Shown here one piece after another: positions 8,605 through 34,615 of a DNA stretch of 34,615 nt. This DNA comes from a virus. How positions within the stretch are numbered: position 1 is the first letter of the stretch; each line of letters starts with the position of its first letter. The translations under genes were made by a program, and so were the position numbers. Below the pieces are notes generated by a model. The model was not told the DNA's origin, did not search any database, and saw nothing but the letters and a program-made list of their open reading frames with translations. Location of the stretch: positions 1 to 34,615 of IMG/VR virus record IMGVR_UViG_3300032304_001158; one strand, 5' to 3'.

Positions 8605-9582
8605 ATGAGCACAAAACAAGACCAAGTAATTACCGATAGATACGCACTTTATAATGGCGATTGCGTCGCAGGAATGCAGGCGCTTCCAGCCGAGTGCGTT
8701 GACCTTTCAGTTTATTCGCCGCCATTTGCAGGGCTTTACCAATACTCAAGCGACGAGCGAGACATGAGCAACTGCATTTCGCGTGACGAGTTTTTTGCTC
8801 ACTACGAGTTTGCAGTGAAGGAGATCCACCGCCTGACAAAGCCGGGGCGCATGACAGCAGTGCATTGCATGGACATCCCGACAGGAAACAGCGGCAACGA
8901 CGGGTTGATTGACTTTCCCGGCGAAATCATCCGCCTGCATGAGAAAAACGGATGGCAGTTCACCCACCGTTATTTCATTTGGAAGGAGCCGCTTACCGTT
9001 CGCAATCGCACGATGATGAAGAGCTTGGCGCATCGTCAATGCTGCGAAGACTCAACACGGTGCAGCATGGCCAACGCGGATCAGCTTTTGATCTTCCGGC
9101 GCAGCGGCACGAATGCGGTCCCGGTGGAACATCCTACAGGGCTTGACCGCTACGCTGGCGAAGAGGAGATGCCTGCTGAATTGCTTCACCTAAAAAACAT
9201 GGAGGGCGACCAGAAGAAAAACCGTTACTCTCATTGGATTTGGAGGCGCTATGCTGATGCCTTCTGGGATGACATCCGCATCGACAATGTGCTCCCCTAT
9301 CGTTGCGCGACCGAGGCTGATGACGAGAAGCACTGTCACCCGCTCCAGCTCGATGTGATCGAGCGGGCTTGCGTGCTTTGGTCTAATCCCAACGAGGTTG
9401 TTCTTACTCCGTTTCTTGGCGTTGGATCGGAGGCTTACGGCGCAATTTTGAACGGACGCAAGGCGATTGGCTTCGAGCTCAAATCCGCCTATTTCGCCCA
9501 AGCGATTAAGAACTGCGACAACGCAGCCAAAGGTCTCGTTTCGATTGAGACGCCGCTATTCAGCCATATCGACAGCATGTAA
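8605..9582 (+). CDS. Site-specific DNA methyltransferase (N6-adenine or N4-cytosine)
   Basis: 325 aa. SPPF at 38-41 is catalytic motif IV and TPFLGVGSEA at 268-277 is the SAM-binding motif I, with IGFELKSAYFAQA after it. Motif IV before motif I gives the beta-class order. The motif I variant has TPFLGVGS in place of the more usual DPFxGSGT. No restriction gene is adjacent, so the enzyme probably marks phage DNA against host restriction. The base modified and the recognition site cannot be read from sequence. Its ATG follows TCTCACC by ten bases. Confidence 0.9.
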   Translation: MSTKQDQVITDRYALYNGDCVAGMQALPAECVDLSVYSPPFAGLYQYSSDERDMSNCISRDEFFAHYEFAVKEIHRLTKPGRMTAVHCMDIPTGNSGNDGLIDFPGEIIRLHEKNGWQFTHRYFIWKEPLTVRNRTMMKSLAHRQCCEDSTRCSMANADQLLIFRRSGTNAVPVEHPTGLDRYAGEEEMPAELLHLKNMEGDQKKNRYSHWIWRRYADAFWDDIRIDNVLPYRCATEADDEKHCHPLQLDVIERACVLWSNPNEVVLTPFLGVGSEAYGAILNGRKAIGFELKSAYFAQAIKNCDNAAKGLVSIETPLFSHIDSM

Positions 9583-9687: not shown

Positions 9688-9757
9688 GTAACGCCTAACC
9701 GTTACAGTAACGCACCGTAACAAAGCGTGACGACACGTAGACAGTGACGTAGACGCT
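9688..9757. repeat. Iteron-like repeats upstream of the initiator gene
   Basis: Three GTAACG/CGTTAC units occur within 9688-9712, including the palindrome CGTTAC-A-GTAACG, with a partial fourth (CGTAAC) just after. They are followed by two GTGACG units and two CGTAGAC units (9736-9742 and 9748-9754). The dense short repeats upstream of replication genes look like an origin or an operator. The CGTAGAC unit recurs in the opposite orientation inside the initiator gene. Confidence 0.6.
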
Positions 9758-9784
9758 TGCAATTCATTCAACTGTTTCATACAA

Positions 9785-10576
9785 ATGGACATGGCCTACA
9801 CGAAATTACACCAATCCCTTGTCACTTCAACGATCTGGCGCGAACCCCACCCGACAAGGATCGTCTGGATTACCATGATGGCGCTTGCAGACCAGCATGG
9901 CGAGGTAATGGCATCCGTTCCGGGATTGGCCGACGCCTCCAGAGTGTCGATTCGAGAGTGTGAAGCTGCCTTGGCTTCTTTTCTTGCTCCTGACCCTTAC
10001 AGTAGGACAAAGGACTTTGAAGGGCGGCGGATTGAGGAGATTGACGGCGGATGGTCTTTGCTGAACCACCCGAAATATCGGCGAATGGCTTCTAAGGACG
10101 AATCAAAGGAAAAGGCCAGCGCGAGGACTGCCCGCTATCGGGCAAGGTTGAAACAAAAAGCGTCGCTGTCTACGGTGTGTGACGGTGTGTCTACGCATGG
10201 AAGGGACATAGCAGAAGCAGAAGCAGAAGCAGAAGCAGAAAATAAAAATACCCCCTTACCCCCTAAAGGGGGAGGCAAGGCGAGGCGTCGGAAAAAGTCA
10301 GAGGGGCAATCGAGAGTCAAAGAGAATACCCCTCAAATGATCCGAATCGGCGCTTTGTTTGGAAGACAGCCCGAAACCTTATGGACTATTGCTGAAGCCG
10401 AATCGCTAGCAATCGCCAACCCCACCGACAAAGAAATCAGCGGAATGGAGTTTTACTATAACGCCACTATCCCGGAGGAAAAAGACCATAGACGAACAGC
10501 GTTGCAGACGCTTCTGAATAATTGGAACATTGACCTTGATCGCGCTCGCCAGCTTTACAAAGCCACCCACCCATGA
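9785..10576 (+). CDS. O-like replication initiator/helicase loader
   Basis: 263 aa. The N-terminal part (MAYTKLHQSLVTSTIW, then TRIVWITMMALADQHGEV and ADASRVSIRECEAALASFL) is a winged-helix domain typical of phage replication proteins that recognise origins. The middle is a low-complexity linker with an AE repeat and a basic stretch (KARRRKKS). The C-terminal 90 residues probably contact the helicase. A second in-frame ATG at 9791 is an equally good start. The DnaB-type helicase follows with a 4-base overlap, the O/P-like arrangement. Confidence 0.75.
   Translation: MDMAYTKLHQSLVTSTIWREPHPTRIVWITMMALADQHGEVMASVPGLADASRVSIRECEAALASFLAPDPYSRTKDFEGRRIEEIDGGWSLLNHPKYRRMASKDESKEKASARTARYRARLKQKASLSTVCDGVSTHGRDIAEAEAEAEAENKNTPLPPKGGGKARRRKKSEGQSRVKENTPQMIRIGALFGRQPETLWTIAEAESLAIANPTDKEISGMEFYYNATIPEEKDHRRTALQTLLNNWNIDLDRARQLYKATHP
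10168..10195. repeat. Paired GTCTACG/GGTGTGT repeats inside the initiator gene
   Basis: GTCTACG occurs at 10168-10174 and 10189-10195, and GGTGTGT at 10174-10180 and 10184-10190. The reverse complement of GTCTACG occurs twice upstream of the same gene. An A-rich tract and a C/G-rich hairpin follow within 80 bases. This is comparable to lambda, whose origin iterons lie inside gene O. Confidence 0.55.
10211..10240 (+). repeat. Five tandem GCAGAA hexamers
   Basis: Five perfect copies of GCAGAA in frame encode (Ala-Glu)5 in the linker of the initiator. They are followed by AAATAAAAATA and a stem CCCCCTT/AAGGGGG near 10251-10272. A hexamer tract can expand or contract by slippage without breaking the frame. 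Confidence 0.85.
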
Positions 10577-14784: not shown

Positions 14785-14967
14785 GCGGGCGAGACGCGTT
14801 CCCGGCGAAGCAAACGACAAACAGTGAAAAGCCACGACGAAAAAGGCGAGTCAAGGCTGAAATTTGCGGCCTTTGATTGTCAAAGGATTAGAGAATCAAT
14901 TTCGTCTCGACATACTGACAGAAAAACAACGCTTGCAAGCCTTTGCGGGACAAAGTAAGTGTAAAGC
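14785..14967 (+). promoter_or_regulatory. Late control region upstream of terminase
   Basis: 183 bases without a gene. They contain a perfect inverted repeat CCTTTGATTGTCAAAGG (14870-14886), the 10-bp palindrome GCTTGCAAGC (14931-14940) and directly after it CTTTG-CGGGA-CAAAG (14941-14955). The latter ends 12 bases before the small terminase ATG. The same CTTTG-N5-CAAAG pattern precedes the portal and protease genes, so this looks like a late promoter/operator. Confidence 0.65.
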
Positions 14968-15477
14968 ATGGCAATCGGACGCCCAAGCAAGCGCACCCCG
15001 GAAGTGATCGAAAGGATCATTGAAGGACTATCCCAAGGCACGCCGCTAACGGTGCTTTGCGAATCCGACGATATGCCCGGAAGGGACGCGGTTTACAATT
15101 GGATGAGCAACGACGAAGAACTTTCCCGACACATCGCGCGCGCGAGGGAGGCAGGGTTTGACCAGATCGCCCTTGACGCCCTCAACATCGCAGACAACAG
15201 CGAGCGGGACACTATCTTGACCGACAAGGGCGGAGAGGTGCCGAATAGCGAGTGGATCAGCCGCTCCCGGCTTCGCGTGGAAACCCGACTGAAGTTGCTG
15301 GCGAAATGGGACCCAAAACGCTACGGCGACCGAATCGCGCAGGAAATCACCGGAGCCGATGGCGGACCGCTTGTCACAAGGCAGGAAGTCACTCCCGAGC
15401 TAGAAGAGCGCATTATAGGTATCGCCGCTATCCAGCAAGCAATCAAGCCACCTAGCGCCCTTGAAGCCGACAACTAA
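14968..15477 (+). CDS. terS: Terminase small subunit
   Basis: 169 aa. The N-terminal helix-turn-helix (SKRTPEVIERIIEGLSQGTP and ESDDMPGRDAVYNWM) is the usual DNA-recognition part of small terminases, and the central EARLKLLAKW-like stretch (RVETRLKLLAKWDPKRYGD) is a conserved marker of the family. It would bind the packaging site and deliver phage DNA to the large subunit. The gene overlaps terL by 17 bases, strong support for the pairing. The start is the ATG 12 bases after a CAAAG element. Confidence 0.88.
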   Translation: MAIGRPSKRTPEVIERIIEGLSQGTPLTVLCESDDMPGRDAVYNWMSNDEELSRHIARAREAGFDQIALDALNIADNSERDTILTDKGGEVPNSEWISRSRLRVETRLKLLAKWDPKRYGDRIAQEITGADGGPLVTRQEVTPELEERIIGIAAIQQAIKPPSALEADN

Positions 15478-16834
15478 GCAATGGCTAACCCCGGCTCAAT
15501 ACGCTACGGTTCACGGGGCGAATCTCTACGATTGGCAGATTGAGGCGCTAGAAGCGTGGGGGAGAGGTTATCAGACATCTCTCTTAACGTGTAACGGAGC
15601 CGGGAAGACATCAGTGATAGCAGCTTGGGCGATTGCGTGGTTCTTCTATCGCTATCCACGCGGAAAACTTGTCGCCACATCGGGATCATTCAATCAGTTA
15701 CAGAATCAGCTATGGCCCGCAGTGGTTCAATTTCTGCCTCCGGGATCGACCTTTACCAACTCCCTAAGCTCTTGCACAATTCGGACGCCACAAGGCGGAA
15801 GGGGCATCGGATTTTCGACCAATGACCCAGGTAAGGCGGAAGGATTTCACCCGACTATTTCACCGGATATTGACCCGGTCTTTATCCTAGTTGACGAGGC
15901 TAAGACAGTTCCGAACGAAATCTTTACCGCTTTCGACCGCTGCACATCGTCATTTAAGCTCTACATCTCAAGTGCAGGCGAGCCGAAAGGGCGCTTTTTT
16001 GACACGTTCGGCAAGCTCTCGCGCTACTTCTGGTCAATGCGTGTTCCGTCAACCATGTGCCCGCACATCAAGGCGTCCAAGCGGGAAATGGACCTTGAAA
16101 CCTACCCGGAAGACACTTGGGAGTTCCGATCCATGCACTTAGCTGAGTTTGTTGACCAGAACGAAGAGCGATTGACGCTCAGTCCTATGCAACTGACTAA
16201 CGCTCTCAAAAATCAGCCTGAGATTGACGAATCGGGCGAAACCGTAGCGTTTTGCGACTTTGCAGCGGGCAGGGACGAGAACGTGCTAGCGATTCGTCGG
16301 GGCAACAAGGTCCGGGTTATCAAGGCATGGCGGGAAAAGGACACCGTGGAAGCCTCACGCGAGTTCATCAACCTATTCAAGCTTCACGGGCTATCCGCTG
16401 GCCAGATTTGGGGGGATGCTGACGGATTAGGAATCGGCCTGATTAACGACATGGCGTCCATGGGGTGGCGAATCAACCATTTCCGAGGCGGAGCACCCGC
16501 ATCGCTCGACCTCAACGACAAATACGCCAGCTTAATCTCCCAAGTCTGGCACTTAGGATGCCACGCTATTCGACTTGGCAGGGTGAACATCGAAGGTCTC
16601 AGCCCTAGGGCGTTCGAGCAACTGACAACCCGGAAAAGCAAATGGAACGACCGGGGCAAGCTAGGGCTACAGAGCAAGGAAGAGCTTCCGCAGTCACCCG
16701 ACCACGGCGACGCCATCCTTGGTTGCATCGGTTGTGGCGCTCGCCTGACCGGAGCCCTAACCGCTTCCGCCGTCATCCAATCCGCGCCCTCGCCATTTAG
16801 GCAGACGGCAATCCGGGGATTCAACCGCTTCTGA
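15461..16834 (+). CDS. terL: Terminase large subunit
   Basis: 457 aa. CNGAGKTS (Walker A, 44-51) and FILVDEAK (Walker B, 141-148) form the packaging ATPase. FCDFAAGRDENVLA (Asp266), IWGDADGLGIG (Asp319/321) and DHGDAILG near the C-terminus form the RNase-H-like nuclease. It pumps DNA into the prohead and cuts it. The start is TTG at 15461 inside terS; the ATG at 15481 is out of frame, and no other start keeps the N-terminal NLYDWQ segment. Motif spacing is of the gp28/T4-like type. Confidence 0.92.
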   Translation: MKPTTKQWLTPAQYATVHGANLYDWQIEALEAWGRGYQTSLLTCNGAGKTSVIAAWAIAWFFYRYPRGKLVATSGSFNQLQNQLWPAVVQFLPPGSTFTNSLSSCTIRTPQGGRGIGFSTNDPGKAEGFHPTISPDIDPVFILVDEAKTVPNEIFTAFDRCTSSFKLYISSAGEPKGRFFDTFGKLSRYFWSMRVPSTMCPHIKASKREMDLETYPEDTWEFRSMHLAEFVDQNEERLTLSPMQLTNALKNQPEIDESGETVAFCDFAAGRDENVLAIRRGNKVRVIKAWREKDTVEASREFINLFKLHGLSAGQIWGDADGLGIGLINDMASMGWRINHFRGGAPASLDLNDKYASLISQVWHLGCHAIRLGRVNIEGLSPRAFEQLTTRKSKWNDRGKLGLQSKEELPQSPDHGDAILGCIGCGARLTGALTASAVIQSAPSPFRQTAIRGFNRF

Positions 16835-16836
16835 AA

Positions 16837-16866
16837 CTTAGCCTTGCCTAAGTTTGTCCCACAAAG
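16837..16866 (+). promoter_or_regulatory. Paired repeat elements before the portal gene
   Basis: CTTAGCCTTGCCTAAG (16837-16852) is directly followed by GTTTG-TCCCA-CAAAG (16852-16866). The second element ends 12 bases before the portal ATG, the same distance as at the small terminase. GGGAGGG upstream of that ATG is one of the few Shine-Dalgarno-like sequences in the genome. Confidence 0.6.
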
Positions 16867-16878
16867 TAAAGGGAGGGT

Positions 16879-18516
16879 ATGGCTAAGGCAAACCCGCCCA
16901 TGATTGCGCCCATGACGGCGGCACACCGTCAACAAAGCTATTCCCTTGGCGAGATTACGCCGGAATACGTCAACAGCATCCTACGCAATGTCCGATATGG
17001 TCGATTGCAGTATGTTTATGAGCTTGAACGGCTCATGCTGGATACTTGGCCTCGCTTTCGCCAGAACGTCAACAAGCTGACTCGCGCTGTCTCTCAGCTA
17101 CCTATTGAAATAAAGCCTGGCGAGATCGAAGGACAAACCGAGCCGAGCGAAAGAGCATTGGCAGTGCATGAAGTAGTCGAACGGGCGTTTGAATCCGCCA
17201 TGCCGCGTCCGGGATACTTTGAATTAGGCACGACCGAGGCTATTGACGCCATTCTTGAATGCGAAGTGAAAGGACCGGTTGCTATCGAAATTGTCTGGCA
17301 GCTACAAAACAACATTTGGAGTCCTCGCTGTTACGTTCCGTTCCCCGGCCCGTGTCTTAGCTATCCGATGAGCAGCAACTTGGAGGAACGTCTAATGTGG
17401 TCGAAAGACGGATACAACGGCAACCTGCGCGACTTCGACAAGGATTCCTCGCTTATCGCCGTCAGGGCACAAGGCGGATTGCACCCGATATTCTCAGGAG
17501 CGATGCGTCCGCTTGTGAAATACTGGATGGCCGCTGTTTTCGGGATGGGTTGGTATATGCAATACGTCCAGCTTTTCGGGATTCCTTGGCGCACAGTGGC
17601 AACGGACGGCACGCCGGAAGCGATGGCCAAGGGTGAAGAGTTCCTAGCCGACATCGGATCAAGTGGCTACGCAATCACCAATCAGGATTTCAAGTTTGAA
17701 GTTCATGACGGCGTTTCCGGCTCCGCTCAGTCACTCCCGCAAGCCGCTATCATCGACCTAGCCAACAAGACATGCGACTTGCTATTGCTAGGCCAAACCC
17801 TGACCACGGACAACACCGGAACAGGCTCACGAGCACTAGGTGAGGTTCATGCCGATACGCTTTCCGACATGGAAAAGGACCGGGCTAAGTGGCTATCCAA
17901 TTTCCTCACGGACCAGCTTGTCCCCGCTATCGTGCGGATGAACTTTGGCGAGATTCCTTCCGAGGAGATGCCTTACGCCGTTGTTGAAATCCCGGAAGTG
18001 GAAGACGACAAGACAAACGCCGAGCGGGTCAAGATACTGAAGGACATCGGCCTTCCAATGCCTTCCAAGTGGGTTTATGAGACTTTGCGCGTGCCCGAGC
18101 CAATGGAAGGCGAGGAACTATTTGGCGCGGAAAAGGAGGCGGCGCAGGTTAATCCAATCGCCAAACAAGGCGAGAAGCCTACTTATTCGTATTATGACCC
18201 ATTGCAGGAAGATGACCTCATTCCCACCGAGGAGATGGCCCTCGCCGCTCAATCCGCTCTCGACAGCAACCGCACGTTGCCGGTTTGGTCCCGCCTTGTT
18301 TCCGGCCTTGGAGCCTCCGAGGTATCCCGCGCACGCGACCTAAGCAACCGCACGGCACTGGACAAGGCGACCGTCAAACGCATGGCCGAGTTTTTCGCCA
18401 AGCACGAATCCGAGCGGGTTTCCGCCTCATGGGACGCCGATAGCAAGACTGCCCGCAGGTGGCTCGCTCACGGCGGGGATGCGGGCTTTGAATGGGTTCA
18501 AACCGTCAAGGGATGA
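16879..18516 (+). CDS. Portal protein (DUF935, Mu gp29-like)
   Basis: 545 aa. The family marker SRALGEVHADTLSDMEKDRA is in the second half, and the aromatic run YWMAAVFGMGWYMQYVQLFGIPWR is typical of DUF935 portals. It forms the dodecameric ring at the head vertex through which DNA passes. The C-terminal extension (TVKRMAEFFAKHESERV, then ARRWLAHGGDAGFEW) resembles a module found at the end of other phage structural proteins. The next gene overlaps by four bases. The order terL-portal is standard. Confidence 0.9.
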   Translation: MAKANPPMIAPMTAAHRQQSYSLGEITPEYVNSILRNVRYGRLQYVYELERLMLDTWPRFRQNVNKLTRAVSQLPIEIKPGEIEGQTEPSERALAVHEVVERAFESAMPRPGYFELGTTEAIDAILECEVKGPVAIEIVWQLQNNIWSPRCYVPFPGPCLSYPMSSNLEERLMWSKDGYNGNLRDFDKDSSLIAVRAQGGLHPIFSGAMRPLVKYWMAAVFGMGWYMQYVQLFGIPWRTVATDGTPEAMAKGEEFLADIGSSGYAITNQDFKFEVHDGVSGSAQSLPQAAIIDLANKTCDLLLLGQTLTTDNTGTGSRALGEVHADTLSDMEKDRAKWLSNFLTDQLVPAIVRMNFGEIPSEEMPYAVVEIPEVEDDKTNAERVKILKDIGLPMPSKWVYETLRVPEPMEGEELFGAEKEAAQVNPIAKQGEKPTYSYYDPLQEDDLIPTEEMALAAQSALDSNRTLPVWSRLVSGLGASEVSRARDLSNRTALDKATVKRMAEFFAKHESERVSASWDADSKTARRWLAHGGDAGFEWVQTVKG

Positions 18517-18776
18517 AGGCTAACGAGATCATGGCGAACGTGGAGAAGCGATTGCCCGAACTGGCGAAACGCTCCTATGCGCCGATTGACAACGAACTAT
18601 CCAGGCTCATGGACCTTGCTGAAAAGATGCCGCCCGCAGCATTCTTTCGCGAAATGGAGGCCGCTTTAGAACGTGTTCCGACCTTGTGGGTGCTTATGGA
18701 CCCGCGACCAATTCAGGACGAGCTAGAAACTGCCATCGGAGAAGCAATCATCGGAGGGATCGAGCAAACGCTATGA
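18513..18776 (+). CDS. Small head-region protein of unknown function
   Basis: 87 aa from the ATG at 18513, which overlaps the portal stop. It is helical and acidic (EKRLPELAKRSYAPIDNELS), without cysteine clusters or membrane segments. Its location between portal and virion morphogenesis genes suggests a small structural or assembly protein. No family recognised. Confidence 0.6.
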   Translation: MKANEIMANVEKRLPELAKRSYAPIDNELSRLMDLAEKMPPAAFFREMEAALERVPTLWVLMDPRPIQDELETAIGEAIIGGIEQTL

Positions 18777-19399
18777 CATCAGGCAAATCATTCATCCGGG
18801 TTGACGTTGATACGGGCGAGATAGGCGCGGTTCTTGCGTCTATCCGCAAGACGTTCGGTGCGGGCAGCATGAAGGCGTTCAACCAAGCCGGGGCGGAAGT
18901 CGCTAAAGATGAGATCGAAGGCTACTACCTGCAAAAAGGGCGCAATCTATGGATCAATCCGGCGCTCCCGACTCATGGACCAGGGCGACAGAAAACCCGA
19001 TTTTCCGATAACGTCGCTACCGGATGGGGCATCACCAGCGTTACAGGATCAGGCGCGAACATAGCTAACAAGGCCGTTGGATTGGCCCACAAGGTCACAG
19101 GCGGCACGATTAGCGCCAAGAGTGCCAAGTTCCTGACTATCCCGATTATTCCCGAGGCTCACGGACGTAAGGCAAGGAAAGGAACAAGCAGCTTTGTTTC
19201 TAATATTGGCCCGCTATTCGCGTCTAAAGGCTGTCTAATGTGGAAAAAGCCGGATGGGACTATCCTGCCCGCCTATGCGCTCAAGAAGTCGGTTACTCAC
19301 AAGCCATGGCCGGGTGCATTGCCGCCGGATGAGACAATCACGGACGCATTCCTTAAAGGCGTGCAGGAAAGTATCGACCAGCAACTGAACAAAGACTAA
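18773..19399 (+). CDS. Virion morphogenesis protein (Mu gpG-like)
   Basis: 208 aa from the ATG at 18773, again a 4-base overlap. The central IANKAVGLAHKVTGGTISAK with KFLTIPIIPEAHGRKAR is similar to phage virion morphogenesis/tail-completion proteins, in which a Gly-rich hinge precedes a TIP strand. It may act at the head-tail joining step. The family call is by pattern and gene order, so moderate. Confidence 0.6.
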   Translation: MTSGKSFIRVDVDTGEIGAVLASIRKTFGAGSMKAFNQAGAEVAKDEIEGYYLQKGRNLWINPALPTHGPGRQKTRFSDNVATGWGITSVTGSGANIANKAVGLAHKVTGGTISAKSAKFLTIPIIPEAHGRKARKGTSSFVSNIGPLFASKGCLMWKKPDGTILPAYALKKSVTHKPWPGALPPDETITDAFLKGVQESIDQQLNKD

Positions 19400-19403
19400 G
19401 AAA

Positions 19404-19447
19404 ATTAGCCTCGCCTAAATTTAGCCTTGCCACTTTGAACGACAAAG
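19404..19447 (+). promoter_or_regulatory. Repeat elements before the protease/scaffold gene
   Basis: ATTAGCCTCGCCTAAAT (19404-19420) is followed by a half copy TTTAGCCTTGCC and then CTTTG-AACGA-CAAAG (19433-19447), ending 16 bases before the protease ATG. This is the same pair of elements, in the same order, as before the portal gene. Confidence 0.6.
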
Positions 19448-19463
19448 CGTAATTGTCGCGCAA

Positions 19464-20513
19464 ATGAACGGAGCCGAAACAATCCAGGCCGCTTTCGGAT
19501 CGGAGCTTATCGCTACCGGGTCCAGTGGCTTCTCTATTGTTTACCTCCCTGAAGGCACACACGAAATCGAGGCGACGGTAAACGGAAAGGCACAAAAGCG
19601 CACCGTTACAGTTGACGAGCGTGTCCTTGCCTCGTTTCAGGACGACTTAGCCAAGCGACTTTCCGATAACGTCCGACCGTTTGCCGGATTTGACCATAAA
19701 GCAGGCCCCGCTTCGATGATCCCGACCGGATACCGCTACGAAAAAGGCGTCGGGCTTATCCTTGAAGGCGAGCTTACACAAGCCGGGAAAGAGGCTATCG
19801 ACGGGCGCAATTATTCTTATTGGTCCCCCTCCTATCTCATGTCGAAAGGCGTTCCAGTCGGACTTACCCCGACCGGGGAAATCGGCTCTTTTGTCAATGA
19901 CCCCGCGTTCCGCTCAATCGAGCGCATTGCCGCTTCTCACACTGAAACCACTATGGAAATCACCGAAATCCTCACCGAACTTGGCCTAGCCGAGTCGAAT
20001 CAGACCGCTGAAGAAGCGGTTGCCGCTGCCAAGACATCGCTCGCCACCCTACGCGAGTCCGCAAGCACCGTGGAAAGCGTCACCGCTGCCCGTGCTTCCG
20101 AGCTTGAAGCCGTCAACGCCGCCAAGGCTGAAGCTGCCCGCATCGCTGGCGAGCTTGAAACCGTCAAGGCGTCTCTAAAGATGCTGGAAGACGAAAAGGC
20201 CGAACAGGTCAAAGCTGCCAACGCCGAAATCGTCCAGGCCGCTGTCAACCGTGGCGCGATTCCTCCGCAGGATGATGCGACGAAAGCCTTCTGGTTGAAG
20301 TCGCTTTCAATCGACCCGGAATCGACCAAGGCCGCTCTCTCAGCCCTTCCAAGCAAGGATGCCGCTTCCGGTCAATCCGTTGCTGCTGAAGTCGTCAAGG
20401 ATGGCGCTGCACCTACCGAAATCACCCGCGCCGAATTTGACGCGATGAGCCCGGTTGAACGCAACAAATACATGCGTTCGGGCGGCAAGATCGCCAAGGA
20501 TGACGCGAAATAA
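19464..20513 (+). CDS. Mu I-like head maturation protease fused to scaffold
   Basis: 349 aa. The first 160 residues (RPFAGFDHKAGPASMIPTGY, GLILEGELTQAGKEAIDGRN and YSYWSPSYL) match phage Mu protease I: a beta-rich serine-type domain with the conserved YSYWSP segment. Residues about 165-270 are an Ala/Glu-rich helix typical of scaffolds, and the tail (FDAMSPVERNKYMRSGGK) is a common end of scaffold proteins. It would guide capsid assembly and then be removed. An internal start may make the scaffold alone. Confidence 0.85.
   Translation: MNGAETIQAAFGSELIATGSSGFSIVYLPEGTHEIEATVNGKAQKRTVTVDERVLASFQDDLAKRLSDNVRPFAGFDHKAGPASMIPTGYRYEKGVGLILEGELTQAGKEAIDGRNYSYWSPSYLMSKGVPVGLTPTGEIGSFVNDPAFRSIERIAASHTETTMEITEILTELGLAESNQTAEEAVAAAKTSLATLRESASTVESVTAARASELEAVNAAKAEAARIAGELETVKASLKMLEDEKAEQVKAANAEIVQAAVNRGAIPPQDDATKAFWLKSLSIDPESTKAALSALPSKDAASGQSVAAEVVKDGAAPTEITRAEFDAMSPVERNKYMRSGGKIAKDDAK
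19953..20513 (+). CDS. Possible internally initiated scaffold protein
   Basis: An in-frame ATG (codon 164 of the protease gene) would give a 186-aa protein consisting only of the coiled-coil scaffold. In Mu and lambda, nested genes (Z in I, Nu3 in C) make the scaffold this way. The ATG follows ACTGAAACCACT, similar to the leader ACTGAAAAC before the methyltransferase gene. No Shine-Dalgarno is seen, as for most genes here. Confidence 0.45.
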   Translation: MEITEILTELGLAESNQTAEEAVAAAKTSLATLRESASTVESVTAARASELEAVNAAKAEAARIAGELETVKASLKMLEDEKAEQVKAANAEIVQAAVNRGAIPPQDDATKAFWLKSLSIDPESTKAALSALPSKDAASGQSVAAEVVKDGAAPTEITRAEFDAMSPVERNKYMRSGGKIAKDDAK

Positions 20514-28880: not shown

Positions 28881-29575
28881 TCCCCGTTTGTATCTTCACC
28901 TATTCTGGCGACGCTTTACCGATAAGGGAATGCGTCCGTTCCGTCATCGCTGCGGGCTTGTTTCCGGTTATCTACGATGATGCCGCCAATCCGCTACCAG
29001 GAACCGCACGGGGCTGGATCGAGCAATCAGGCGCGGAATACATCCAAACGACCTTCACGCGGCGGGGGAACCTGAATGGGACCGATTGCGCGGCAGCTAT
29101 CGCCCGGACGCTCTACGAGGCCGCCAAACGCTACGGAACGGCATCTGCGATGAAGCTAGACAGCGATACGATCCTAATTGACCCGCTTCCGTTCCTTTCC
29201 GGCAATGTCGGGGTTTGTTCATCCGCCATCGCCCGGCGCTCGTCTTTTGGATGCTGCTATGCTCTCACTGCCATAACGGCGCTAGAAGTCGCCAAGGAAC
29301 TAGAGTTCGGGCATTTTGATCCGGAAGCGCCTGAAGACTTGGCCATCTGGGATTCAGTCGCACGCATCCAACACCCGCGCACGATGCACGATTTCAACCC
29401 GGAATCAGGCGCATTCTCAGCCGTCCCGATTGGCTCCGATCCCTGCGATTGCGCCCGGTTTTCTGCCCTTACTTTCGGGAATCAGCCCCGCGAAGGCTGG
29501 AAAGACCGCGCCTTTCAAGTGTTTCAAGAAATGCAACGGTTCAACGATCACATTGAAAAACTTAGCCTAGCCTAA
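28877..29575 (+). CDS. Glycosyltransferase-like protein (GT-A type)
   Basis: 232 aa. It starts with a strand-turn (PVCIFTYSGDALPIRECVRSV), then VIYDDA, and has AMKLDSDTILIDPLPFL with the DSD (95-97) acting as DxD, which binds the metal and sugar nucleotide. Several downstream acidic residues and a His (HFDPEAPEDLAIWDSV) fit the family. It could glycosylate a tail protein or a host surface sugar. A loss of key residues in the second half cannot be excluded. The stop codon lies inside the repeat CTTAGCCTAGCCTAAG. Confidence 0.7.
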   Translation: MIPVCIFTYSGDALPIRECVRSVIAAGLFPVIYDDAANPLPGTARGWIEQSGAEYIQTTFTRRGNLNGTDCAAAIARTLYEAAKRYGTASAMKLDSDTILIDPLPFLSGNVGVCSSAIARRSSFGCCYALTAITALEVAKELEFGHFDPEAPEDLAIWDSVARIQHPRTMHDFNPESGAFSAVPIGSDPCDCARFSALTFGNQPREGWKDRAFQVFQEMQRFNDHIEKLSLA

Positions 29576-29576
29576 G
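29561..29576 (+). promoter_or_regulatory. Third TTAGCCTNGCCTAA element
   Basis: CTTAGCCTAGCCTAAG overlaps the last codons of the glycosyltransferase gene. TTGACC and a further TAGCC follow just downstream, 30-40 bases before the next ATG. It matches the elements before the portal and protease genes, but no CTTTG-N5-CAAAG box is present here. Confidence 0.5.
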
Positions 29577-29616
29577 ATTCTTGACCTAGCCAAACCTTTT
29601 ACCTACCTTCCAGCCA

Positions 29617-29946
29617 ATGGCAAACATCGCCCGAGCATACTGCGACGCCGCTTTCGCCCTGAACTTCACTTGCAAGGATTCAGCGGGCGCTGCTGTCAAT
29701 TTGACGGGGCACACCGTCACCGGGTGGATCAAGGCCAATGCCAATTCGACTACGCGGATTCTTGACCTTGCACCAACCATTCCGACGCCAGCCAATGGCA
29801 TCATTGTTGTCTCCCGAACCGATACGCAAATGGACCTTGACCCAGGCCGCTACATCTACGGAATCCGCGTCAAAAACGCAGGAGGCAACACGGTTTTCAT
29901 CATCGAAAAGCCGATCAACTTCCTTCTCCAACCGCCCACATCTTAA
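29617..29946 (+). CDS. Upper baseplate/fibre-anchoring protein candidate
   Basis: 109 aa. Strand-rich with an Ig-like arrangement (ALNFTCKDSAGAAVNLTGHT, VTGWIKANA, RYIYGIRVKNAGG). Similar one-domain proteins precede tail fibres in many siphophages and may form the attachment ring. The fibre gene follows after three bases. The leader is ACCTACCTTCCAGCCA with no Shine-Dalgarno. Family not named with certainty. Confidence 0.55.
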   Translation: MANIARAYCDAAFALNFTCKDSAGAAVNLTGHTVTGWIKANANSTTRILDLAPTIPTPANGIIVVSRTDTQMDLDPGRYIYGIRVKNAGGNTVFIIEKPINFLLQPPTS

Positions 29947-33162: not shown

Positions 33163-33558
33163 ATGGACAACACCGAACGAATCAAAGCGTCTATTTTGCG
33201 GAATCCATCCGCTCCAAACTATCAGATCGCCAAAAACCTGAACATCAAAACGGAAGACGTCGTTAAGGTCCGCGCCGAGATGGGACACACAGCGGAACCT
33301 CAACACGATCAAGGTTTACTCCTAAGCAAACTTCGAGTGCTACCACGCAGGCCAGCGGAATCTGCCGCGAAATACATCAAGCGCCTTCCGCTCGGTCGAG
33401 GCTTTGACATCCGCAAACTTGCGCAAGAATGGGGCATGGGTGAGGATACAATCCGACGCCATGCAAAAGACCTCGGATGCCTCAAGTATGTCGAAGTCGA
33501 ACCTGACGAATGGGTGCCAGTCATAATGAACCCTGAAACCGCCAAGCAGTATGTCTGA
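33163..33558 (+). CDS. Double helix-turn-helix DNA-binding protein
   Basis: 131 aa from the ATG at 33163. Two predicted helix-turn-helix segments are visible: NYQIAKNLNIKTEDVVKVRA (residues about 19-38) and DIRKLAQEWGMGEDTIRRHA (residues about 83-102). No catalytic motif is seen. It lies between the metalloprotease and the metallophosphoesterase, the last two genes of the late operon. It may be a late regulator or contribute to packaging-site recognition. It overlaps the next gene by eight bases. Confidence 0.65.
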   Translation: MDNTERIKASILRNPSAPNYQIAKNLNIKTEDVVKVRAEMGHTAEPQHDQGLLLSKLRVLPRRPAESAAKYIKRLPLGRGFDIRKLAQEWGMGEDTIRRHAKDLGCLKYVEVEPDEWVPVIMNPETAKQYV

Positions 33559-34552
33559 AGGAATTGACCTCTCAACCAAGCGCGTCACTGACAACGATGC
33601 TATCTCCGAAGTCACCAAGGCGCGGGCGGCATTGGCGAAACTCAAACAGGAGCTTTCAGCGGTTACGAAAGACCGTGACGAGCTGCTTGTCGAATACGGC
33701 GACCTGCAAAAAGCGCGTTACTCTGGCAAAGCATCACGGACCATCCCGAAACCCGCGAAGGATGATTTCATCCGCATCATTGCCAATGACGTTCACGGGC
33801 AAATGATGGACAAGGATGCCGTCGCCGCTTTCCTTGGCGACTTGCGCGACTGGAATCCCGATGAGATCGTGCTAAACGGTGACATCATCGAATGCGGCGG
33901 ATTTCTCGCGGCTCATCATGTCCTCGGCTACGTTTCGCAGACTGAATACTCATGGCAAGAGGACATCGCGGCGGGCAACTGGTTTCTCGACGAGGTTCAA
34001 AAGGCCGCGCCAAAAGCCCGCATCCACTACATCGAAGGCAACCATGAGGACCGTGTTGAACGCTGGATTGTTGACCAAACCATGCGCCACACGCGGGACT
34101 CAGCATTCCTGCGCGACCTTGTGTCGCCGAAGACGCTCCTGCGCCTTGAAGAGCGTGGAATCGCTTACTACGGGCGCGGAGAGCATCACATCCAAGGACT
34201 GCCGCCAGGGTGGATCAAACTCGGCAAAATCTTCTTCGTCCACGAGCTAGGCGGCGGGAAAAACGCTGCTGCTTCCGCTGCTGGGAAAACGGCTGGCAAT
34301 GTCGTGTTTGCCCACACTCATCAAGAGGACTCAGCCACGTTGGTCCTACCCGGCGTTGGGCTTGTCAAGGCATGGAATCCTGGCTGTCTTTGCCAACGTG
34401 CGCCGCTCTGGAGGCATTCAAACCCGACTAATTGGAGCCATGGCTACGCGGTCCAATTCGTTGCGAAATCGGGCCAGTTTTTGCACCTCAATATTCCTAT
34501 TTGGGAGGGGCAATCGCTGGTCGGATCATTGCACGGAAAAATGAGGGGTTGA
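33551..34552 (+). CDS. Calcineurin-type metallophosphoesterase
   Basis: 333 aa. NDVHG (79-83), LNGDIIE (108-114), GNHEDR (163-168), FVHELGG (229-235) and AHTHQ (254-258) are the five metal-ligand blocks of calcineurin-like phosphoesterases in order; the usual GHTH is AHTH here. An N-terminal coiled coil (ARAALAKLKQELSAVTKDRD) precedes it. Such phage genes may act as nucleases or nucleotide phosphatases. The gene is the last in the late strand and ends inside the terminal repeat. Confidence 0.88.
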   Translation: MSEGIDLSTKRVTDNDAISEVTKARAALAKLKQELSAVTKDRDELLVEYGDLQKARYSGKASRTIPKPAKDDFIRIIANDVHGQMMDKDAVAAFLGDLRDWNPDEIVLNGDIIECGGFLAAHHVLGYVSQTEYSWQEDIAAGNWFLDEVQKAAPKARIHYIEGNHEDRVERWIVDQTMRHTRDSAFLRDLVSPKTLLRLEERGIAYYGRGEHHIQGLPPGWIKLGKIFFVHELGGGKNAAASAAGKTAGNVVFAHTHQEDSATLVLPGVGLVKAWNPGCLCQRAPLWRHSNPTNWSHGYAVQFVAKSGQFLHLNIPIWEGQSLVGSLHGKMRG

Positions 34553-34615
34553 CAAATCCGCCCGCGTGTGGGATTGGTTGCTTGATCCAGACTGCAAGCC
34601 AAGTGCGAAACAGCG
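34493..34615. repeat. Right copy of 123-bp exact terminal direct repeat
   Basis: Identical to bases 1-123. It includes the end of the metallophosphoesterase gene and 63 bases downstream. See the left copy for interpretation. Confidence 0.95.

Follow-up and report, generated by a model that had tools for sequence, protein, structure and literature searches.

Recurring palindromes within predicted leaderless late promoters point to a probable lineage-specific operator in a phage of likely Verrucomicrobiota host

At promoters of the MerR family, activation by spacer remodelling needs a spacer of 19–20 bp, and insertion or deletion of a single base pair abolishes regulation (PMC1526738). Leaderless transcription has been mapped by Cappable-seq in Akkermansia, where leaderless starts make up about 10% of the mapped start sites (PMC4782308). 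Little seems to be known about the timing of genes in phages of Verrucomicrobiota, and the genome paper of phage P8625 (locus label L238), isolated on a Verrucomicrobiota host, mentions no promoters. Here we describe the palindrome CTTTG-N5-CAAAG in the 34,615-nt window of IMG/VR record IMGVR_UViG_3300032304_001158 (the whole stretch analysed, hereafter W, to which positions refer unless another genome is named). The palindrome recurs ahead of the genes for the small terminase (TerS), the portal and the head maturation protease, and looks like a regulator site that would switch head genes on or off together.

W is a complete phage genome, bases 1–123 being repeated at 34493–34615. The isolated phage with the nearest portal is Akkermansia phage Chantilly (30%), while bacterial genomes yield two distant portal relatives, one in Chthoniobacter flavus (29%) and one in a metagenome-derived proteobacterial bin. 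W and P8625 have in common a phosphoesterase and a RuvC-like nuclease. These shared genes and the portal relatives make a Verrucomicrobiota host likely.

The palindrome and the late-promoter frame

Exact copies of CTTTG-N5-CAAAG lie at 14871–14885, 14941–14955 and 19433–19447, with a single one-mismatch copy (GTTTG) at 16852–16866; no further match at zero or one mismatch was found anywhere in W. The first-pass annotation had placed these four copies in gene-free DNA, and its positions hold: all four are intergenic, and the count over W finds none of the exact copies in coding DNA. First-order Markov simulations of W (n = 200) gave a mean of 0.04 exact matches and a maximum of 1. A lone 5-bp inverted repeat of such size is not significant (p about 0.2–0.6), and at two mismatches the pattern shows no enrichment (14 found compared to 19.6 expected). 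What stands out in the sequence is that the same arms come back at fixed places immediately ahead of three head genes.

Each of these three copies occupies the spacer of a predicted plus-strand promoter. Ahead of TerS, CTTTG-CGGGA-CAAAG (14941–14955) is located between a -35 box TTGCAA (14933–14938) and, 17 bp after it, a -10 box TAAGTG (14956–14961), followed after 6 nt by the ATG at 14968. The portal palindrome, GTTTG-TCCCA-CAAAG (16852–16866), falls between TTGCCT (16844–16849) and TAAAGG (16867–16872), and the ATG at 16879 again follows after 6 nt. The protease palindrome, CTTTG-AACGA-CAAAG (19433–19447), is flanked by TTGCCA (19427–19432) and TAATTG (19450–19455), with 8 nt to the ATG at 19464. 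In all three, TTGC stands 23 bases before TA, so that the spacer measures 17 bp, and 6–8 bases separate the -10 hexamer from the start codon. The element ends exactly 12 bases before the ATG and is followed by TAA at TerS and portal, as had been noted. At the protease, the gap is 16 bases, the palindrome is shifted 2 bp towards the -35 box and an extra CG precedes TAA, so that the position of the palindrome changes within a constant frame.

The frame can be written TTG(A/C)NN-N17-TA with a start codon 5–8 bases past the -10 box. Searched as TTG(A/C)-N19-TA-N4-N5..8-start, it occurs at 4 of the 12 gene starts preceded by a gap, compared to 3 of 3442 other NTG positions on both strands (rate 0.0009; P about 3e-10). 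The fourth late promoter, TTGACC-N17-TACCTT (29581–29609, plus strand), precedes the ATG at 29617 by 7 nt. It contains no palindrome, so that frame and palindrome are separable; its frame is conserved in the related contigs G1, G2, G3, G4 and G8. The arrangement sought for leaderless promoters is thus present in the sequence: the start codon follows the -10 box by 5–8 nt, and 17 bp separate that box from the -35 box. As +1 is expected some seven bases past the -10 box, the predicted mRNA 5' ends coincide with the ATG or fall no more than about two bases from it, and the TerS, portal and protease mRNAs should be leaderless or nearly so. The same pattern gave very few matches when tried in Chthoniobacter.

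Behind these promoters lie the TerS gene (14968–15477, phrog_1482, E 2.6e-34), the first gene after the first site; the Mu-like portal gene (16879–18516), whose relatives are annotated as portal protein; and the protease gene (19464–20513, phrog_328, E 4.3e-16), all on the plus strand. The fourth palindrome copy, 70 bp upstream of the TerS site, adjoins no start codon. As described in the first-pass annotation, it is a perfect 7-bp palindrome with a 3-base centre (CCTTTGA-TTG-TCAAAGG, 14870–14886, plus strand), and it is possible that it serves as an auxiliary site.

One of the background frame matches, TTGCAA-N17-TACAAA-N5-ATG at 9757–9791, bears on the gene annotated at 9785, whose true start is probably 9791, with a leaderless mRNA. 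A candidate early promoter, TAGACA-N16-TAAGGT-N8, lies at 1890–1924 ahead of a TTG start at 1922. A second inverted repeat, AAACTTAG-N6-CTAAGTTT or close variants, is found at 16834–16855, 19401–19422 and 29558–29579, at the stop codons of the large terminase gene, a gpG-like gene and gene 28877, where it overlaps or lies just upstream of three late promoters. It occupies the same three places in G3, and is weaker in G1 and G2.

Conservation and parallel palindromes in other phage lineages

The closest comparisons are with contigs G1 (IMGVR_UViG_3300032245_000505), G2 (3300032246_000596) and G3 (3300012663_000165). The last is a fragment that begins after TerS, so only its portal and protease sites can be compared. 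These relatives are not independent samples, and the shuffles reported below do not model phage gene starts. G1 and G2 keep the sites in place at all three genes and G3 keeps those at portal and protease, whereas the 14871 copy is absent from G1 and G2 and present only in W; positional conservation, which the first-pass annotation had proposed as a check, thus extends to the three promoter copies and not to the fourth. In the alignment of the four genomes, the TTG of the -35 box, both 5-base arms and GTAA are invariant, with the exception of the first arm base at the portal (CTTTG in G1 and G2, GTTTG in G3). The central five bases and the remainder of the -10 box vary. At TerS, the entire TTGCAA box and TAA are invariant in W, G1 and G2.

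A scan of IMG/VR for TTG-N5-CTTTG-N5-CAAAG-TAA revealed, beyond G1 and G2, no locus with a head-module protein match beside the site, the sole other protein match being a 31% large-terminase match in L222. Viral contigs L208, L215, L224 and L226 contain a conserved TTGGCACACTTTGTGA-N-GCAAAGTAAGGCACCCCC stretch that holds the same arms, with no matches to W proteins there.

In related phages whose portals are 45–50% identical, TTGC(C/A)A or a variant of it is again followed by N17, TA and a close ATG, but CTTTG is absent. A third group has its own palindrome, CCTTAGCAAGTTGCTAAGG, with 19–23 bp of palindrome at the portal promoter of L101, G4 and G8. At this gene in L101, L103, G4 and G8, ATCCTTAGCAAGTTGCTAAGGAT or close variants extend across the spacer and the -10 box (0 of 400 shuffles for L101 and L103). 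The L101 copy of ATCCTTAGCAAGTTGCTAAGGAT is a perfect 23-bp palindrome, with variants in G4, G8, L103 and L097. A weaker variant is found at the protease in this group (p 0.03 to 0.32), with G4 and G8 as carriers.

P8625, which has a head module unrelated to that of W, carries GTATCCA-N5-TGGATAC at five late gene starts (those of gp08, gp13, gp15, gp22 and gp23; P8625 positions 5426, 9634, 10750, 15573 and 17515), each within TTG(A/C)NN-N17-TA-N7-ATG. Nine matches are found at up to three mismatches versus 0.62 expected (0 of 100 shuffles), and one exact copy is located within the protease gene (8089). To fit the frame, the gp13 start is probably 9656 rather than 9620. CTTTG-N5-CAAAG was looked for in P8625 and Chantilly, and no site was found. 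In G013, TTGACA followed by TTCGC...GCGAA-like palindromes precedes two gene starts, at 9366 and 16209 of that contig (L232, L233), possibly a further lineage-specific operator.

It is plausible, if tentative, that Verrucomicrobiota phages share a late-control scheme. Fixed-geometry leaderless late promoters (TTG(A/C)NN-N17-TA-N5..8-ATG) would each hold a lineage's own core palindromic operator, paired with a regulator to match, and the two would be swapped or evolve anew along with the late-gene module. Such a scheme is not proven to be universal, given that several other groups have no significant palindrome.

Candidate regulators and competing readings

The first-pass annotation had read the repeats as the binding site of a dimeric late-gene regulator. 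This remains the best reading of the sequence, although the annotation overlooked that the element fills a 17-bp promoter spacer, that its TAA is the -10 box and that the start codon stands at about +1. We consider it more probable than not that CTTTG-N5-CAAAG is an operator, within the core of leaderless late promoters, for a dimeric regulator specific to the phage lineage. A repressor appears more likely than an activator, the sign being a judgement. A dimer at about -20 would cover the ground needed by RNA polymerase, and the TerS, portal and protease units would be held off jointly until the regulator is removed or outnumbered, with transcription otherwise beginning at, or about two bases from, the ATG to yield leaderless mRNA. 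Measured from the ATG, the centres of the palindromes fall between about -12 and -24; they always lie beneath the footprint expected for polymerase, but at no fixed phase. This variability fits occlusion (steric repression) better than spacer-remodelling activation.

None of the candidate binders follows the sites. For the XRE-type protein (12878), suggested in the first-pass annotation, HTH_3 and protein searches find XRE only in W; it has no counterpart in G1 or G2, both of which keep the sites. The second suggestion, the ribbon-helix-helix protein 2525 (a weak Pfam match, E 0.02), is encoded in each site-bearing genome complete enough to judge (W, G1 and G2, as opposed to the fragment G3), its syntenic homologs in G1 and G2 (32% identity) having been found by synteny after BLAST missed them. 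It fares no better as a binder: G012 encodes a ribbon-helix-helix protein that matches the G1 and G2 protein at 100% identity, together with a full late-gene set, and has no site. The winged-helix protein 33163, favoured at first and about 80% identical in G1 and G2, was rejected given 83–86% identity in the site-free G011–G013. A structure search with it returned generic winged-helix folds only, with no match at E below 0.001. It forms a pair (33163–34552) with a calcineurin-like phosphoesterase, and the two are conserved at about 80% and over 90%, respectively, across phages with unrelated head modules. A MerR protein was likewise rejected, PF13411 (MerR_1) having no match in W, G1–G4, G8, G9 or G011–G013. 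The palindrome travels with the head module, and the binder may therefore be encoded in that module or be a protein outside the reach of current family libraries.

Several observations weigh against the operator reading. Some other related groups have no significant palindrome at the portal or protease promoters. The XRE, ribbon-helix-helix and winged-helix proteins each fail the co-occurrence test, being missing from site-bearing or present in site-free phages. This last result would also be expected if a host DNA-binding protein bound the sites, or if the palindrome were part of a host promoter class. We regard a host origin as improbable, given that the same position is filled by different palindromes according to phage group (CTTTG-N5-CAAAG, CCTTAGCAAGTTGCTAAGG or GTATCCA-N5-TGGATAC); because the palindromes differ between phages, a phage-borne binder is indicated. 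In addition, the 29617 promoter of W has the frame with no palindrome, and P8625 and Chantilly are devoid of the W motif.

The -10 boxes provide the main point in favour of a different sign, in which an early-made dimeric activator would use the same operator and leaderless promoters to turn on weak late head-gene promoters. The palindrome-bearing boxes of W, G1, G2 and G3 (TAAGTG, TAAAGG, TAATTG, TAATGA, TAATCC, TAAGGA and TAAAAG) never end in T, whereas those of the palindrome-free 29617 promoters (TACCTT, TAGCTT) do, as would also fit activator dependence. Furthermore, late phage genes are usually turned on by activators. However, the distance of the palindrome from the promoter boxes changes by 2 bp within W and by about 10 bp between lineages, which is awkward for a strict geometry. 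The 17-bp spacer also differs from the 19–20 bp of MerR-type activation (PMC1526738), and MerR_1 is missing from the genomes examined. An activator is thus considered unlikely, if less so than a host protein. Least probable of all is a role in RNA, with a small hairpin just ahead of the ribosome site governing how the TerS, portal and protease messages are translated. While the sites end 11–16 nt ahead of the ATG and the isolated 7-3-7 copy is foldable (-7.1 kcal/mol), the folding of single copies is weak (-1.4 to -2.5 kcal/mol), and it is the sequence of the arms that is conserved, without any compensatory change; the GTTTG variant even breaks the outer pair. The element would moreover be outside the message if transcripts start at the ATG. 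The hairpin was rejected on the grounds of weak folding and lack of covariation.

Implications and comparison with known systems

The findings provide a code by which late promoters and start codons can be read in Verrucomicrobiota phages, and they suggest that some gene starts be corrected. They also point towards a set of regulators whose DNA specificities diverge and which have escaped current annotation. As a cultured phage, P8625 makes the late-promoter prediction directly testable.

The W palindromes recall the sites of Mu Mor/C, lambda CII and similar late or delayed activators, in that presumed dimer sites or repeats occur at phage promoters whose core boxes are poor. Mor/C sites are located upstream of or at the -35 box, unlike the W palindrome. 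The direct repeat TTGC-N6-TTGC of lambda CII occurs by overlap in the TerS promoter of W, but a CII-type site was rejected, as the protease has TTGC-N4-TTGA while the palindrome stays intact. In the leaderless promoters of Akkermansia, the start codon is likewise at the expected transcription start; those are host genes, and the accessible part of the report shows no such palindrome (PMC4782308). As in P22, where the ribbon-helix-helix repressor Arc acts at the ant promoter, W encodes a small ribbon-helix-helix-like protein. In W, however, the sites are at three late head-gene promoters rather than at an antirepressor gene, and the protein is a candidate binder, against which the site-free G012 argues. 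The palindrome of W shares its location inside the promoter spacer with the MerR family (PMC1526738). It differs from the 19–20 bp MerR arrangement in having a 17-bp spacer at every palindrome-bearing promoter of W, G1, G2 and G3, within which the position of the palindrome is variable.
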